A DNA stretch of 28,468 bases, from positions 1-28,468 of the IMG/VR virus record IMGVR_UViG_3300047375_000173. The stretch is one strand, 5' to 3'. Made by a program: the position numbers and the translations under genes. This document shows positions 1,858 through 15,292 of the stretch, piece by piece. Every line of letters begins with the position of its first letter. Position 1 is the first letter of the stretch. A model generated the notes under the pieces. It ran no database searches, was not told the DNA's origin, and saw only the letters and a program-made list of their open reading frames with translations. The stretch comes from a virus.

Positions 1858-1987
1858 TGAATCGTTTGTAGAGTCTTCTGTCATCGGGAAATCCGAAGTG
1901 TAAGTAGAAGTGGTCTTGTATTGTGAGTTCGTTGATTTCATATTCTTCTGGGTATTCAGTTTGCTTAATTTTGACTACTGTCTTCAT
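1796..1987 (-). CDS. Small hypothetical protein (63 aa)
   Basis: I do not recognise this protein. It is 63 aa from the ATG at 1987, which is preceded by a purine-rich AAAGAGA. An earlier in-frame ATG at 2047 would run 83 nt into the upstream gene and adds little that looks coding. The sequence is mixed and globular-looking, with aromatic residues in DHFYLHFGFPDD and a basic/aromatic C-terminus. It lies second in the replication operon between a 55-aa gene and DUF3310, overlapping both. The alternative is that this frame is the shadow and DUF3310 starts further upstream, but the amino-acid composition favours this reading. Confidence 0.5.
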   Translation of the reverse strand: MKTVVKIKQTEYPEEYEINELTIQDHFYLHFGFPDDRRLYKRFNGEALSKYHKPEVDTKLLFR

Positions 1988-2132
1988 TCTCTTTGAATGC
2001 TTTAAATAAATCCATTGCCATTGTTCCCGATATGCCTTTAGTGGCATAGTCTCTAATGATGAACTCCTTTAGGAGTCTCACCTCATTGTATAAAGCCTCA
2101 ACACGAGCTTTAGTGTATTCTTTGTCTTCCAT
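1965..2132 (-). CDS. Small helical protein, first gene of the replication operon (55 aa)
   Basis: Starts with MEDKEYTKARVEALYNEV and is charged and helical throughout. No family is recognised. It is the first gene behind the promoter at 2161-2191, with a leader of about 20 nt after the expected transcription start. The leader is A-rich (ATCAAAACAACT before the ATG), as is usual in Bacteroidetes. The end overlaps the next gene by 23 nt. Its position suggests a replication accessory or regulatory role, but nothing in the sequence proves this. Confidence 0.6.
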   Translation of the reverse strand: MEDKEYTKARVEALYNEVRLLKEFIIRDYATKGISGTMAMDLFKAFKENEDSSQN

Positions 2133-2160: not shown

Positions 2161-2191
2161 CAAAATTATTTACACACAACATAAAGAGCAA
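2161..2191 (-). promoter_or_regulatory. Bacteroidetes-type promoter of the replication operon
   Basis: On the minus strand TTG (2191-2189) is followed by 20 nt and then TAATTTTG (2168-2161), which fits the Bacteroidetes sigma-ABfr consensus TTG-N19-21-TAnnTTTG. The first gene starts about 30 nt further on. The TTG lies at the end of the T-tract of the terminator at 2190-2213, so one element ends an incoming transcript and the next begins a new one. Confidence 0.8.
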
Positions 2192-2213
2192 AAAAAAAGA
2201 GGCGAATGCCTCT
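2190..2213 (-). terminator. Intrinsic terminator just ahead of the replication promoter
   Basis: On the minus strand AGAGGC/GCCTCT (6 bp) closes a 4-nt loop and is followed by nine Ts. It insulates the replication operon from transcripts entering through the AT-rich repeat. It is the second of two same-direction terminators placed about 130 nt apart. Confidence 0.8.
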
Positions 2214-2325
2214 ATATATAAATATATCTATATCTCTATATATATAATAAGAGACCTATAGGTCTCTATATATTACTATATATTATAACTACTATATATA
2301 ATATCTCTATATATAATATATATAT
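2214..2325 (-). repeat. AT-rich TATA/CTCTATATATA repeat tract, possible origin or unwinding element
   Basis: About 110 nt made almost only of A and T, with the unit CTCTATATATA repeated at roughly 2210, 2233, 2263 and 2304, separated by runs of ATAT. No coding frame is plausible. It lies between two terminators and directly upstream of the replication operon. This is the kind of place where phages keep an origin or a DNA-unwinding element. The origin role is inference; the repeats are seen directly. Confidence 0.6.
2250..2267. repeat. 18-bp perfect palindrome inside the AT-rich tract
   Basis: AGAGACCTATAGGTCTCT is its own reverse complement. It is the only block with real GC content in the tract, so it stands out as a protein-binding site (a dimeric initiator or repressor operator) or as an RNA hairpin if transcribed. 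Confidence 0.75.
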
Positions 2326-2354
2326 AAAAAAAAAGAAAGGTGGGATAACCCACC
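2326..2354 (-). terminator. Intrinsic terminator of the late/lysis operon
   Basis: On the minus strand GGTGGG/CCCACC (6 bp, 4-nt loop) is followed by a T-rich tract (TTTC then nine Ts). It lies about 30 nt after the holin stop and ends the long late transcript. Confidence 0.85.
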
Positions 2355-2382
2355 AAACTTAAACACCAAAAGTTATCAACGA

Positions 2383-2748
2383 TTATTTAACATTACCTCT
2401 CTTGTCAAGAGAGCGTACTGCGAAGTATCCACCTACAACTGTTACACTTAACATATTCCACAAACTTATCCAAGCAGGGTCTACCTTTAGGTAGCCCAAC
2501 CCATCAAAGAAGGTGGTAATTACCAGAAAGCTAATCACTACAATCAAGGTTAGTGGTCTTACATTCTTGCTTAACCAAGAGTCCGATGTCATATCGGATT
2601 TCCACCTACTACTAATCTCAGACTCAATAGAAGCCTTTAGAGCGGCTTTCTCCTCTGGAGTGGATACATACTTGTCTACGACATTAGAAACGGCTTCTAT
2701 CGTCTCCTGTGCGCTTTTTCCGAGTAGTTTTTTTATTAGTGGGTTCAT
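2383..2748 (-). CDS. Holin (3TM-type holin-like membrane protein)
   Basis: 121 aa. The N-terminal half is charged and helical (KKLLGKSAQETIEAVSNVV, then a stretch rich in Glu and Ala). It is followed by the motif SWLSKNVRPLTLIVVISFL, one clear membrane helix, a short loop and a second hydrophobic helix near the C-terminus, ending in basic residues. The W-skNvRPltl motif with this layout is typical of the GTA/3TM holin group. It sits at the end of the lysis cassette after an M15 endolysin and would form the membrane lesions that release or activate the endolysin. It is the last gene before the terminator at 2326-2354. Confidence 0.75.
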   Translation of the reverse strand: MNPLIKKLLGKSAQETIEAVSNVVDKYVSTPEEKAALKASIESEISSRWKSDMTSDSWLSKNVRPLTLIVVISFLVITTFFDGLGYLKVDPAWISLWNMLSVTVVGGYFAVRSLDKRGNVK

Positions 2749-6964: not shown

Positions 6965-7439
6965 CTTTGTCTGGGTAGATGTCATCATTATTGTTTGTAT
7001 AGTATTCAGGATATGTAGACTGATTGAAAGACATAAAGTCAATAAACCTACGAGTGTAGTGTTCAGCAATATCTCTATGCTTGTTCGTTAAGAAGTCTAC
7101 CTCGTCTTTCTCCATAGCTATACTGTTCTCTGCCGTGTGCTTGTAAGCACCACCATTGCCAATAGTATAAGCTGCGTGAGGTAGGTATTCTACCATAGCC
7201 CAATGAATCAACATAGGCTGAATATAGTCATCTAACAAAGTCTCGTAAGCAGGAGTCAATGTAGCATTGATTATGTCATTGCGTAACTTATCGTAGAGCT
7301 TTGTGCCAAGATAGTTCTGCAAATGGATTTCTTGAGAAATCTCTATGAATTGAAGAAACTTGTCCGAATCAATGTTGCCAGACAATACGCTATTGCGTAC
7401 TAAATCGTCTCTCTTTATGAATAATACTTTTTGTCCCAT
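6936..7439 (-). CDS. Head-tail connector-like protein (DUF6712-like)
   Basis: 167 aa, helical, with the pattern LFIKRDDLVRNSVLSGNIDSDK and then the motif IHLQNYLGTKLYDKLRNDI. This resembles a Bacteroidetes phage head-completion/connector family that I recall as DUF6712. Such proteins form the ring under the portal and gate tail attachment. It starts directly at the portal stop (ATG at 7439), which fits. The family name is from memory; the role is inferred from position and the all-helical fold. Confidence 0.6.
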   Translation of the reverse strand: MGQKVLFIKRDDLVRNSVLSGNIDSDKFLQFIEISQEIHLQNYLGTKLYDKLRNDIINATLTPAYETLLDDYIQPMLIHWAMVEYLPHAAYTIGNGGAYKHTAENSIAMEKDEVDFLTNKHRDIAEHYTRRFIDFMSFNQSTYPEYYTNNNDDIYPDKDAVFNGWQL

Positions 7440-9202
7440 TATCCTTTATTGTTAGGGTGTCTACCTTGTCTCGGCATATCAATAGGAGCTTTAGCCACCT
7501 CTTTAGGGTTCTTTGGCATCTTAAATCCTTCTCTTACCGCTTGGTTTACATTCACAAACTTTGTCCCCTGTAGGGCGTTACCACCCCATTCAGTTCCATC
7601 TTTCTTTAACTTCTTCTTGTAGATTCTACGCTCCCATCTATGGTAGCAGTTTACACCACCCTTGTACTTAAATAGTGAGTAGTTTCTACCCTTGTGTCCA
7701 AATGATTTGTTCACACCTCTTGCACTCATCTGTCCAATGTCTTCCTTACGGTATAACATCTTTTTAGACATCATAGTCTTACAGAAAGTTCTGCTTTGAC
7801 CCATAGGTGTCTTTGAAGTGCCTTTAGAGTACCTGTAACGCACTTTATAGAGTTCGGTGTCTTGGTTGCTATCTTGAGTAGCAGAAAGGCTTACAAGCCC
7901 GTTTAAATAGCTTTCAACATCAAAGTCTTCTGGCTCTTCATCTCCTACTTCTTCTGCATCAATGAGTTCATAGCCCTCTGGCTCTTCCTCACCCAAGTCA
8001 GCCAATGCATCTAACATCTCGTGGGCTAACTCGTCATCAAGAAAAGGGCGGCTATCGTCCCCCAACTCTACTTTGCTCAATTCTTCTTTTGTCTCCTCTG
8101 TAATGTCCCCTTGCAACTCCAAAGGTTGTAGTGTCTTGAAGTAGACATTGAGTGAAGCACCATTCACCGCAAGGATGTCATCAATAGCATCTAATATCAA
8201 CTCTTGGATAGGTCTAACAACCGTGTTGTGGAATAGCAAACTTGCCGTCTTCAACTCGTCAGCATTGTTACCCAATCCTGTATTGTCCTTAATACCCATC
8301 AACATAGGTGAAGTAACCCTATGGGCTACCATCAGCTTACGCATACTCTCGTCTGCCAAGAATTGGTACTGCTCACTTGCATCACTTAATTGTACTGGCT
8401 CAATAGAGGCAGCCATCTCCTTGTTGTCGTTAAACGCCAAGATAAACTTACCAGAGTTAGATGAACCACTAAACTTCTGTATGATTCGTCTCTCTATAAG
8501 CTCACGCTCCTCTTCAGTAGGCACACCATTGTTGAAGTTAATCAACATACTTGGTGAGAGTCCGTTCTTAATGTTATTGATGTGGTAGTTAGCTACCTCC
8601 TCTTCCAACTCTGCATAAGGTAAACCACCTTGATAGTCTACAGGTGAGTAGTAGTAAAATCCACTACGATAAGGCTTGATGCAATAAATCTCTAAACCCT
8701 CACCCTTCTCTCCGTAACCAAAAGCAGGTATTCTAATAGGCTCAAAACCTTTCTTGCGAATCTTTGTCCAATCTTTAGAGTAGTAGTATCCTGTAACCTC
8801 ACCATCGTCATTCATCTTCTCCATACGGAGAGTCTCAATAGGCATATGCTCTACTTGGACAATCTTTGTTTTGTCCTTGTTGTAGATAACCTGCATAGCC
8901 GCTTGACCCATAGCCTTTAAATCAAAGGTTATCTTACGCATACAAGTACGAGAGAAGAGACTCTTCATCATAGCGTACTCATCAGGCTTTCGTGATGCAT
9001 CAGTAGCATACAAACCCTTTCCGTAGATAAGCTCGGTCATACCATTTATAATGGCATTGTTGGTAGCACTCCCATTGTACCTGTCTATAAGAAATTGGAA
9101 GTAGTTGTTATCCTCACCATAGGCTACCCATTGCTTACGATTGTCTTCTACAACCGCAGGGGTAGTATGCGATGCGAGGTTTACGATGCGTATATTGCTC
9201 AT
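7439..9202 (-). CDS. Portal protein with an extra C-terminal domain
   Basis: 587 aa. Residues 1 to about 375 look like a phage portal: early VAYGEDNNYFQFLID and SATNNAIINGMTELIYGKG, the long mixed middle, and the motif VAHRVTSPMLMGI..NTGLGNNADELK near 292-318 that ends with a stem helix region. The portal is a dodecameric ring at the capsid vertex through which DNA enters. After an acidic linker (about 380-430) a further 130 residues follow, with the features SRTFCKTMM, ARGVNKSFG and CYHRWERRIY and a basic, Gly-rich end. I do not know a function for this tail. The start overlaps the upstream gene by 4 nt. Confidence 0.8.
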   Translation of the reverse strand: MSNIRIVNLASHTTPAVVEDNRKQWVAYGEDNNYFQFLIDRYNGSATNNAIINGMTELIYGKGLYATDASRKPDEYAMMKSLFSRTCMRKITFDLKAMGQAAMQVIYNKDKTKIVQVEHMPIETLRMEKMNDDGEVTGYYYSKDWTKIRKKGFEPIRIPAFGYGEKGEGLEIYCIKPYRSGFYYYSPVDYQGGLPYAELEEEVANYHINNIKNGLSPSMLINFNNGVPTEEERELIERRIIQKFSGSSNSGKFILAFNDNKEMAASIEPVQLSDASEQYQFLADESMRKLMVAHRVTSPMLMGIKDNTGLGNNADELKTASLLFHNTVVRPIQELILDAIDDILAVNGASLNVYFKTLQPLELQGDITEETKEELSKVELGDDSRPFLDDELAHEMLDALADLGEEEPEGYELIDAEEVGDEEPEDFDVESYLNGLVSLSATQDSNQDTELYKVRYRYSKGTSKTPMGQSRTFCKTMMSKKMLYRKEDIGQMSARGVNKSFGHKGRNYSLFKYKGGVNCYHRWERRIYKKKLKKDGTEWGGNALQGTKFVNVNQAVREGFKMPKNPKEVAKAPIDMPRQGRHPNNKG

Positions 9203-9531
9203 CGGTAAATGTATTGATTATCATTATCAGTATCCTCGTAGTAGGTGAACTCACCACTATTGACACTGAACTTCTCAAGGTTAGTCTGATTAGTACAATA
9301 GACCTTACCTCTGTATATCTCGTTTGTTCCTGTAATTCTTATTGTGTAGTACCTACCCTCTACGAATGTATAAGTAGGTGTTATATGGAGGTAGTTCGCC
9401 TCCTTCGTAGCCGTTAAAGACTCCGTAGCAGATACATTTGTCTCCTCATCAGTAATAACTACCGACACGCTTAAATCAAACGCTCTGGGAACAAAGTATA
9501 TCTTCTTGTCTGTTGTAGTTACTATATGCAT
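9199..9531 (-). CDS. Small beta-rich structural protein (110 aa)
   Basis: Not assigned to a family. It is composed of alternating hydrophobic and Thr residues (LSVSVVITDEETNVSATES, HITPTYTFVEGRYYTIRITG), as in an immunoglobulin-like or beta-sandwich domain of about 100 residues. It lies between the probable tail tube gene and the portal and overlaps the portal start by 4 nt, so it is probably a virion protein such as a decoration or neck component. Its leader contains GTTAACTTAAT directly before the ATG. Confidence 0.6.
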   Translation of the reverse strand: MHIVTTTDKKIYFVPRAFDLSVSVVITDEETNVSATESLTATKEANYLHITPTYTFVEGRYYTIRITGTNEIYRGKVYCTNQTNLEKFSVNSGEFTYYEDTDNDNQYIYR

Positions 9532-9565
9532 ATTAAGTTAACCACAAGAGAGGTAAAGTGTTATC

Positions 9566-9595
9566 AAAAAGAAAGGGTAGCCCGAAGACTACCCT
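9566..9595 (-). terminator. Intrinsic terminator downstream of the probable tail tube gene
   Basis: On the minus strand GGGTAG/CTACCC (7 bp when the flanking A-T pair is counted, 8-nt loop) is followed by TTTCTTTTTG. It lies about 60 nt after the 9647 stop and only about 30 nt past the start point expected from the promoter at 9631-9660. Confidence 0.75.
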
Positions 9596-9630
9596 AACCA
9601 AAACACCTATTATCCGCACCAAGTGCAGAA

Positions 9631-9660
9631 CAAATATACTACTTTATTATGAAAGTACAA
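9631..9660 (-). promoter_or_regulatory. Bacteroidetes-type promoter overlapping the 3' end of the tail tube gene
   Basis: TTG (9660-9658), 19 nt, then TATATTTG (9638-9631) on the minus strand matches TTG-N19-21-TAnnTTTG exactly. The TTG lies inside the last codons of the upstream gene. Start would be near 9624. It could drive the portal group if the terminator at 9566-9595 is leaky, or a short RNA of about 60 nt if it is not. Confidence 0.6.
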
Positions 9661-10186
9661 TAGTATCAGTTGCAGAACTCATTCCTGCAAATGGGTTACC
9701 ATCTGTTGCTCCGTTAATGAAGTTTGCAGCAGTACGCTCCATAGCGTTGAAGGTAAGAGTGTAACCACTCATATCTCCCATAGCAGCACCAGAGGCAATA
9801 GTACCACCTGTTACATCTGCTCCGTGTTCACGACCTACCAAGTAAGCGTTACCATTGTAGTCCTCTACAACGATGTGAGGTCTTCCGTAAGCCATTAACT
9901 TCAACTCGTTGTTATCTTCCTTGCTCAATTGAGGCAAAGTAAGGTTAACCGCTTGGTCAAAGAATACTGTTCCGTTCTCACGAGAAGCGTTGATTGTCTG
10001 CTCTACGCTTGAAGCACCCTTCAATTCGTATTTGTAGGCAGAGAATGTGCCGTCCATATCTGTTACCTCATCCGAAGACAAAGTAATGCCACCCAAGTCA
10101 CCAAAGTCTACGAAGTAAACCGCACGGATACCACCGACAGACTCTCTACAAGGTAAAGCACGACCTTTTGTTAAATCACAAGCCAT
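9647..10186 (-). CDS. Probable major tail (tube) protein
   Basis: 179 aa, starting MACDLTKGRALPCRESVGG. It has the features of a Bacteroidetes phage structural protein that follows the capsid gene: YKYELKGASSVEQTINASRENG, ELKLMAYGRPHIVVEDYNG, VGREHGADVTGGTIASGAAMGDMSGYTLT. The alternating strands fit the beta-barrel tail tube fold, and it lies next to the major capsid gene with its own terminators, as expected of a highly expressed virion protein. A capsid decoration protein is the main alternative. The leader after the capsid terminator is A/T-rich with no Shine-Dalgarno site. Confidence 0.6.
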   Translation of the reverse strand: MACDLTKGRALPCRESVGGIRAVYFVDFGDLGGITLSSDEVTDMDGTFSAYKYELKGASSVEQTINASRENGTVFFDQAVNLTLPQLSKEDNNELKLMAYGRPHIVVEDYNGNAYLVGREHGADVTGGTIASGAAMGDMSGYTLTFNAMERTAANFINGATDGNPFAGMSSATDTIVLS

Positions 10187-12284: not shown

Positions 12285-12314
12285 TTGTAGATGTTAGATT
12301 TTTATGTAAGTTTG
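12285..12314 (+). promoter_or_regulatory. Bacteroidetes-type promoter for the plus-strand gene
   Basis: TTG (12285-12287), 19 nt, then TAAGTTTG (12307-12314) on the plus strand matches the consensus TTG-N19-21-TAnnTTTG. Transcription should start near 12321, about 15 nt before the ATG at 12336. The promoter is entirely separate from the minus-strand operon around it. Confidence 0.75.
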
Positions 12315-12335
12315 GAGAAACCGAAACACTTTATT

Positions 12336-12503
12336 ATGTCTGTTATTCACTTCTTACAACCAGAATTAACTGGTAATTCTTTTATTATAGCAAAGACTTC
12401 TTGCGGTAGAGATGTAGACTCTGTTGGAGACTTTGATACAAGGTTAAAATATGTTACTTGCAAACATTGTATAAAAAAATCTATAAAAGAAAAGGAGGGC
12501 TAA
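12336..12503 (+). CDS. Plus-strand moron: 55-aa Cys/His small protein
   Basis: The only plus-strand gene supported in the window. It runs from ATG 12336; the earlier in-frame ATG at 12291 lies inside the promoter and upstream of the transcript start. The protein has H5, C23 (TSCGRDV) and a VTCKHC pair (C42, C45) followed by a Lys-rich tail. This H...CGR...VTCxxC pattern recalls small zinc-binding phage proteins ending VTCKxC. Its leader (AAACACTTTATTATG) is almost identical to that of the early gene at 27088. The stop codon TAA is the loop of the terminator hairpin. Independent promoter and terminator in the middle of the head operon define a moron; it could be expressed in lysogeny or early, and host-interaction roles are possible. 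Confidence 0.75.
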   Translation: MSVIHFLQPELTGNSFIIAKTSCGRDVDSVGDFDTRLKYVTCKHCIKKSIKEKEG

Positions 12504-13770: not shown

Positions 13771-14688
13771 TTAACCTAATTTAGAAATTTGCTTAACGGC
13801 TATTTTTTGTTTTTCAAAAACCTTTTTGTTTTGGTTGTACTCACCTATTTTTTTTGTGTCAACAAGATTACTTAATGGGATACCAAGTTCTTTTACTTTA
13901 GACTCTAATTCTCTTAAGGCTTTGTCAATAGATGACATATTGCTATCAACATTTTTAACCATTCCATTTAGCAATGAGCTTACACTTTTTATTTCGCTCT
14001 CTAATTTTTTAACACCAGAGTTAAAATCAATTACACCAATAAGAACTTTAGAAAGTATGCTCATCTCAACTTTTATTGATTGTTTTCCTATGGCTTCTAA
14101 AATAACATTTTTAATGTTATCTAATTTACTTTGCGCTTCTAACTCCTCTGGGTCTTGCTTACTTGCCTCAACCTTATCAACGAAGTAACCCTCAATAGAG
14201 AAACCCTTTACCTTACCACTCTTCACATAGTCGTTCCAAATCTCATCATTGTGAACCTTCATTGATACCATCCAAGTGCCTACAGGTAAGTCCATACCAT
14301 ATAGCTTACTCTTGTCTTGCTCACCTTCTATAATCCAACTCTCTACAACACTCAAGCCTGTAATGTCTATTTGGTGTTCTAATGTGGCTTTGTTTTGGTT
14401 GCCGTTGATGAAGAACAATTCACTTGCCTTTCTAACCGTGTCTTGCGAGAAGTAGATGTAATACTCATCTTCACCGCTTCTACGATAGATAGGTTTATTA
14501 GGTACAAGAGCTGCTCCCAATAGAACACGCTTGTCCTCATCTATGGTTTTCAATTCTACTCGCTCCTCTTCCTTGAGGGCTACGAAGTCCTCCTCTATAG
14601 CAGGGGACTCTACGATGCTTATAGCTTGGATACCTGCTTGTAGGCTCTCCTCGTCTAATAATAGTTCAACTATGCGAAACATATACAA
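13771..14688 (-). CDS. Prohead protease, XkdF-like serine peptidase, with helical C-terminal part
   Basis: 305 aa. Residues about 1-175 match the phage serine protease XkdF type: IVESPAIEEDF near 25-35, ATLEHQID with candidate catalytic H105, YGMDLPVGTWMVSMKVHND around 130-148, and GKVKGFSIEGYF with candidate nucleophile S164. The rest (about 180-305) is helical and may act as an internal scaffold. Such proteases process the capsid and core during prohead maturation. The start at 14688 lies 23 nt inside the homing endonuclease gene; a second Met two codons in is also possible. Scaffold/core-like genes and the capsid gene lie downstream, as expected. Confidence 0.8.
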   Translation of the reverse strand: MYMFRIVELLLDEESLQAGIQAISIVESPAIEEDFVALKEEERVELKTIDEDKRVLLGAALVPNKPIYRRSGEDEYYIYFSQDTVRKASELFFINGNQNKATLEHQIDITGLSVVESWIIEGEQDKSKLYGMDLPVGTWMVSMKVHNDEIWNDYVKSGKVKGFSIEGYFVDKVEASKQDPEELEAQSKLDNIKNVILEAIGKQSIKVEMSILSKVLIGVIDFNSGVKKLESEIKSVSSLLNGMVKNVDSNMSSIDKALRELESKVKELGIPLSNLVDTKKIGEYNQNKKVFEKQKIAVKQISKLG

Positions 14689-15292
14689 ATCTTTTATTTT
14701 TACACTTTCCTCTTTTAATTATCTCGTCCCGAACAAGCACACTCATAGTAGATGAAGTTACGCCATAGTGTTTAGCCGCTTCTTCAACTGAATCAAAGAA
14801 CATCATTGATGTTAACTCTAAAACTCGTTTCTTGACATTGTTTTGCACTCTACCCATTCTTGATGTGGATATTTTTTCCCTTGTCTTTAATGAGTGCTTT
14901 TTACCATACATAGGATTATTCTCTCCACTCTTGTCTAAAAACATAAATGGATAAGTTTTTCCTTTTTTGGATTTAGAAATTGCTTTGGCTCTTTTCTCTT
15001 TAACCTCTTTGCTTGTGTGAGTATGTTCCCATCCACCTACTGCACTATTCTTTAAGTTGTAGGACATTGAATCATTCATAGCGTTTAATTCCTCAAGGAT
15101 GAACTCCTCAAGTTCAAGATAATGTTCTCCTGTATAAAGTATTTCTCTTGAGAACATTTCTGGTCTTTTTGAGTACGCTCTATTAAAATGCACACCACTT
15201 CCTATGTACCCATCATCAGTACATCCTTTGTGACTACCTATATAATACATACAATTAGAAGAGTCTACCCACTTGTATACAAAACCGCTCAT
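14666..15292 (-). CDS. Free-standing GIY-YIG homing endonuclease
   Basis: 208 aa. The N-terminus shows a GIY-YIG-type nuclease: FVYKWVDSSNCMYYIGSHKG, with YYIG at 16-19 as the second half-motif and the first reduced to VYKW. Later come ENNPMYGKKHSLKTREKIS (NUMOD3-like DNA-binding repeat) and a C-terminal HTH (SVEEAAKHYGVTSSTMSVLVR, NUMOD1-like). These enzymes cut DNA lacking the gene and so spread into relatives. It lies exactly between the tape measure and protease genes: it begins in the tape-measure TAATG and overlaps the protease start. Codon use is AT-rich, like mobile endonucleases. It has no structural role. Confidence 0.85.
   Translation of the reverse strand: MSGFVYKWVDSSNCMYYIGSHKGCTDDGYIGSGVHFNRAYSKRPEMFSREILYTGEHYLELEEFILEELNAMNDSMSYNLKNSAVGGWEHTHTSKEVKEKRAKAISKSKKGKTYPFMFLDKSGENNPMYGKKHSLKTREKISTSRMGRVQNNVKKRVLELTSMMFFDSVEEAAKHYGVTSSTMSVLVRDEIIKRGKCKNKRFVYVSHS

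Follow-up and report, generated by a model that had tools for sequence, protein, structure and literature searches.

Stacked terminator-like hairpins in an exchangeable noncoding cassette at a probable late/early transcription boundary of uncultivated phages

Four kinds of described systems come closest to the locus analyzed here. One is the intrinsic (Rho-independent) terminator at the end of a phage operon, with which our locus shares the G+C-rich stem, the 4-nt loop, the T-run, the strand and the position directly after the last lysis gene, but from which it differs in possessing two strong hairpins plus a middle hairpin with a broken U/A tail, in an unusually AT-rich spacer, and in that the block is swapped as a unit. 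Another is the SPP1 oriR, an AT-rich island in intergenic DNA with transcription signals around it, from a phage whose genome is circularly permuted and encodes a DnaB-type helicase (PMC6316719), features also found here; our locus, however, is without initiator-specific direct repeats and is not retained across phages that share their replication proteins. Nuclease genes are known at the boundaries of phage genetic exchange (PMC10448857), and in the HEG-bounded exchange regions of T4 and ICP1, GIY-YIG genes are found at the edge of the exchanged segment (PMC10448857, PMC2988022), as they are here, while what is exchanged in our case is not a gene but a short noncoding boundary, about 170-600 bases long. 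A final parallel is with GOLLD and ROOL, large phage-associated RNAs, which are resembled by one version of the locus (type C, below), a candidate ornate RNA of about 535 nt with a loop-loop contact; type C, however, has no Rfam match, and the type A version analyzed here is not an RNA of this kind.

The window (the whole stretch of DNA analyzed) is the 28,468-base IMG/VR record IMGVR_UViG_3300047375_000173, from an uncultivated phage with a circularly permuted genome of about 30 kb, in which all large genes are on one strand. The long relatives are permuted with respect to the window and two of them have repeated ends, indicating a circular map. Compared with relatives, the window is short of about 1.4 kb, in which they encode DnaA-domain-IV-like and sigma-factor-like proteins (L210:7690-8130 and 7009-7593, a region largely missing from the window), both weak matches, the former to PF08299 at E 2e-5, below cutoff. 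The interval in question, positions 2190-2354, is flanked on one side by genes for an M15 peptidase endolysin and a holin, the latter being the last gene of the late/lysis block (2383-2748, minus strand; PHROG 3427 holin, 4e-17; Pfam GTA_holin_3TM, 9e-4, below cutoff), and on the other side by genes for a RusA-like resolvase, a DUF3310-like protein and a DnaB-like helicase, the first downstream ORF (1965-2132, minus strand, 55 aa, ATG at 2132) being conserved, with homologous ORFs in relatives. As to the host, the terminase shares no more than about 42% identity with any phage record, so that no close isolate was recognized in this comparison, and its best matches are mostly with Bacteroides and Parabacteroides phages; we infer a host within Bacteroidota. 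The sole DNA match among annotated phage records was a distant one, to the M15 peptidase gene of two Pelagibacter phages, and a search of GTDB genomes with the holin found no relative, thus providing no host or prophage link. Elsewhere in the window, a sole plus-strand ORF (12291-12503, 70 aa) interrupts the otherwise one-strand genome, with a strong minus-strand terminator-like hairpin (12513-12490) beside it, and the stretches at about 7306-8056 and 8112-10186 each match twice in one relative (G001, 34538 bases), possibly as a result of either duplication or an assembly fault.

Read on the minus strand, the order of elements is the holin end (2383), a first terminator-like hairpin (terminator 1), an AU-rich spacer, a hairpin, another AU-rich spacer, a second terminator-like hairpin (terminator 2), a promoter-like motif and the downstream ORF. 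Terminator 1 (2326-2354) consists of the stem GGTGGG-TTAT-CCCACC (2354-2339) followed by TTTCTTTTTTTTT (2338-2326), and terminator 2 (2190-2213) of the stem AGAGGC-ATTC-GCCTCT (2213-2198) followed by a T-run (2197-2190). These are the strong ones, two G+C-rich hairpins with T-runs on the transcribed strand, directly 3' of the last lysis gene and before the promoter-like block, in agreement with the same-direction terminators proposed by the preliminary description. The middle hairpin, AGAGACC-UAUA-GGUCUCU (2250-2267, minus strand), with only a broken U/A tail, corresponds at the DNA level to the perfect palindrome AGAGACCTATAGGTCTCT, the sole one of at least 18 bp in the window and the longest there, where a first-order Markov null predicts 0.07 palindromes of this length and 0.02 with as much G+C. 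It occurs once in the window, and no dinucleotide shuffle contains a copy with 3 mismatches. The spacers (2268-2325, of variable length among relatives, and 2214-2249) belong to the tract whose AT-richness had been pointed out and which has the highest A+T content in the window, and no ORF of at least 60 aa covers the interval, in line with the original view of it as noncoding. Outside the hairpins, the transcribed strand possesses 1 C versus 8 G in 109 spacer letters, and the near absence of C can be explained by slippage copies of one motif. Of the four CTCTATATATA units originally listed, three are exact (2210, 2234, 2305) and the remaining one, third by position (2264), matches at 10 of 11 letters; the first overlaps a terminator stem and the third overlaps the palindrome.

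A promoter just downstream had also been suggested, and a promoter-like motif, TTTG-N20-TAATTTTG, is indeed found at 2192-2161 on the minus strand (TTTG at 2192-2189, TAATTTTG at 2168-2161), on the early side, with its -33-like box overlapping the end of the T-run of terminator 2. In flavobacteria the sigmaA -7 box reads TAnnTTTG (PMC9723704), and such a reading of the motif depends on the putative Bacteroidota host. As about 1.2 matches of this type are expected per strand by chance, the motif gains its weight from conservation in relatives, even if some of them do not conserve its -33-like box. A -7-like match, TAAGTTTG (2354-2361, minus strand), just before terminator 1, makes a weak promoter candidate. 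Sigma70-type promoters inside the tract were considered and rejected: their counts are near the shuffle mean, and TA-rich sequence trivially matches TATAAT.

We fetched 80 IMG/VR loci with the same holin and typed by pattern the bases that follow it in 63 of these, some being near-copies. The interval between the holin and the early genes comes in at least four unrelated versions, type A (the arrangement of the window, 31 loci), B (12), C (9) and D (7), with other arrangements in 4. Type B is made of TTG-N20-GAACTTTG, a hairpin GGAGACUUGUAAGUCUC (or a GGC/GCC variant) and then a terminator-like signal. Type D possesses a long dyad around CCCTTTAGGGG and is found only in phages with more diverged helicases. 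Hairpin-plus-T-run signals are also present in intervals B and C, while a simple strong terminator was not seen in all type D intervals. The palindrome signature is found in 30 IMG/VR contigs, once in each, and in those overlapping the typed loci it sits at this place. Conservation of the palindrome and the tract, which the preliminary description had called for, is thus apparent inside type A and does not extend between cassette types.

Within type A, for which 27 distinct sequences were compared, all 27 possess the middle stem as well as the stem of terminator 1, whose loop varies and which has one GGAGGG/CCCTCC variant, and the stem of terminator 2 is retained in nearly all type-A relatives. 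For the 19 stem pairs counted across 10 sequences, pairing is kept in 98.9% of the cells, with few compensated changes, and AUAGACC/GGUCUAU represents a compensated variant of the middle stem. Two variants of the middle loop, UUUA and UAAA, disrupt the palindrome at the DNA level and leave the stem intact; retention of the stem along with loop change would fit RNA hairpins better than a site for a dyad-binding protein, a protein site that tolerates changes at its centre being a less probable alternative. The AT tract presents a different picture: among the related genomes examined, A+T content peaks in the type-A intervals, while their spacer lengths vary and they show no position-by-position conservation. 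In part of the relatives TAAGTTTG is replaced by TAAGTTGG. The interval is followed by a conserved block, TATGTTG..TGTAAATAATTTTGTGTACATT, in types A and B, with only its 3' part in C.

The types A, B and C substitute for each other, with sharp edges, between phages that are otherwise 97-98% identical. One example is L121 (type A) versus L134 (type C), which share about 98% identity until the holin gene stops, cannot be aligned through the interval, and share about 98% identity once more starting with the early promoter. Another example is the window versus G004 (type B), with 97% identity on the early side and alignability resuming from the holin. On the holin tree, types change many times, and well-supported branches force at least four changes for A and at least three each for B and C. 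We consider it likely that the interval is a noncoding transcription boundary, in which stacked terminators insulate the late (lysis) genes from the early (replication-side) genes, and which is exchanged as a cassette. Small variable ORFs are also found as the first ORFs after the early promoter (L083, L093, L097, L141), several of them followed by a CCCTC-TTCG-type hairpin with a T-run; these appear to form a second exchange spot beside the first.

As to what exchanges the cassettes, four contigs (L094, L108, L141 and L119) carry GIY-YIG-type ORFs after the cassette and before the early promoter, and in the last of them such an ORF takes the place of terminator 2. One of the two nuclease families involved is below the Pfam cutoff and the link is one of association only; these nucleases may drive the exchange. 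It could further be argued from their presence in the four contigs checked, from the sharpness of the cassette exchange and from the precedent for nuclease genes at phage exchange boundaries (PMC10448857) that the interval serves chiefly for recombination or homing, as a scar of intergenic GIY-YIG homing and otherwise AT-rich filler without function. We find this very unlikely, as the hairpin stems persist throughout type A, where most sequences have no nuclease gene, and as such AT-rich tracts were not seen elsewhere in the fetched loci. Outside this locus, an ORF of the window with a NUMOD3 motif (14666-15292), homing-endonuclease-like, is positioned between a tape-measure-like ORF and the next gene.

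The same exchange data bear on the proposal that the interval is a replication origin, whose AT tract would unwind and whose palindrome or CTCTATATATA repeats would bind a DnaA-domain-IV-like initiator from the early region. No other place in the genome is as AT-rich, relatives encode a DnaA-domain-IV-like protein (below cutoff) along with the DnaB-like helicase, and the SPP1 oriR demonstrates that an AT-rich intergenic origin may reside between transcription signals (PMC6316719), a precedent for which we retain a small probability of an origin. However, A, B or C are interchangeable among phages whose helicase and DnaA-like proteins are 97-100% identical, and each is also found with diverged alleles. 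Relative to G004, the helicase/DnaA-like identities are 96.7/96.6% for L083 (A), 100/100% for L086 (B) and 98.7/96.6% for L095 (C), versus 88.9/55.9% for L100 (A), 88.6/54.5% for L120 (B) and 85.6/55.9% for L149 (C), so the cassettes are unlinked to the helicase or DnaA-domain-like alleles, and neither the palindrome nor the AT tract can be an obligatory site for a cognate initiator. The earlier suggestion of an initiator-binding site in the palindrome is likewise not supported, the palindrome being absent from phages with near-identical replication proteins, single-copy, limited to 30 contigs and broken as a dyad by the loop variants. No DnaA-box cluster is present, and the early region of one relative revealed just two short two-copy repeat families where iterons were sought. 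GC skew, proposed as a check, was uninformative, with no consistent turning point at the interval, detrended maxima falling 0.1-5.3 kb from it, with small amplitude and with one-strand coding as a confounding factor. Overall, the interval is probably not the replication origin, and this role seems to us a distant prospect; of the original alternatives, an origin or an RNA element, it is the transcription/RNA side that is supported, by two conserved terminator stems, a conserved middle stem and an early promoter motif.

A further alternative is that the interval is, or contains, a gene for a small noncoding RNA, an AGAGACC-UAUA-GGUCUCU hairpin in AU-rich flanks ending at terminator 2, and we regard it as a possible, though not a likely, explanation. 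Such an RNA might, with a similarly modest chance, originate from a local promoter or from processed late read-through, share its locus with RNAs of types B and C, and act late in infection or between competing phages. Type A does possess a conserved structure with compensation, but stem retention and compensation are equally expected for terminators; the folding of the interval as RNA (z = -4.4) and the almost complete lack of C on the RNA strand would also fit. Terminator 2 would serve as the end of such a gene, but a convincing internal promoter is not present in type A, in which TAAGTTTG lies only 15 nt after the nearest TTG, abuts terminator 1 and gives way to TAAGTTGG in some relatives; the AT tract also drifts, and the window produced no Rfam match at the gathering score, sub-gathering matches (up to E 5) being at chance level. 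The alternative is kept alive mainly by types B and C, which do look like RNA genes, even though neither these nor the other cassette types have Rfam matches at the gathering score. In type B, a promoter-like TTG-N20-GAACTTTG precedes two hairpins, with a T-run after the second; matches to its hairpin 16-mer in IMG/VR outside this phage group resemble coding sequence or chance.

Type C (9 loci, the core motif being found in 13 contigs), at the same locus, is a candidate structured noncoding RNA of about 535 nt, with a TAnnTTTG-like, -7-like box upstream, and is predicted to fold much more stably than shuffled sequence (z -5.4). In an alignment of ten sequences (A1: L093:2785-3320 with L237, L238, L239, L240, L241, L134, L097, L104 and L243), 17 of the 106 predicted pairs have changes on both sides. 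A loop-loop helix outside the nested fold (A1 columns 76-82 with 132-138) is 97% paired, far above slid controls, and 4 of its 7 pairs have changes on both sides. A similar DNA was not found in the phage collection, and, ten related sequences being few, type C is a strong lead and not a defined family. One might imagine, tentatively, the late/early boundary as a dedicated noncoding-RNA locus, where related phages swap the unrelated RNA cassettes A, B and C at a single position, the RNAs perhaps being variable factors that act upon the host or rival phages; type A would then be, again with some doubt, a hairpin RNA in AU-rich flanks, type B a short two-hairpin RNA, and type C an ornate RNA with a specificity-like loop-loop contact.

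Returning to the transcription boundary, which we favor, leftward transcripts from the head, tail and lysis genes would stop at terminator 1, read-through would be halted by the weaker middle hairpin and next by terminator 2, and expression of the early, replication-side genes would restart at the promoter whose -33-like box overlaps the end of the T-run of terminator 2. The AT-rich tract between the hairpins would be a spacer drifting by slippage. The entire interval, from the holin stop to the early promoter, behaves as one cassette, swapped by recombination at the conserved flanks, with GIY-YIG nuclease genes inserting at the same spot. Termination and promotion are both predicted here from sequence and its conservation.

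In conclusion, the eye-catching AT-rich palindrome of the window sits in a probable terminator boundary, and its relatives argue against an origin. The bigger value of the locus is as a lead: a fixed noncoding site is refilled with unrelated structured cassettes, including a candidate RNA of over 500 nt without an Rfam match, and in this respect type C is more interesting than the feature of the window itself. The cassette swaps also offer a way to separate replication signals from transcription signals in these phages.
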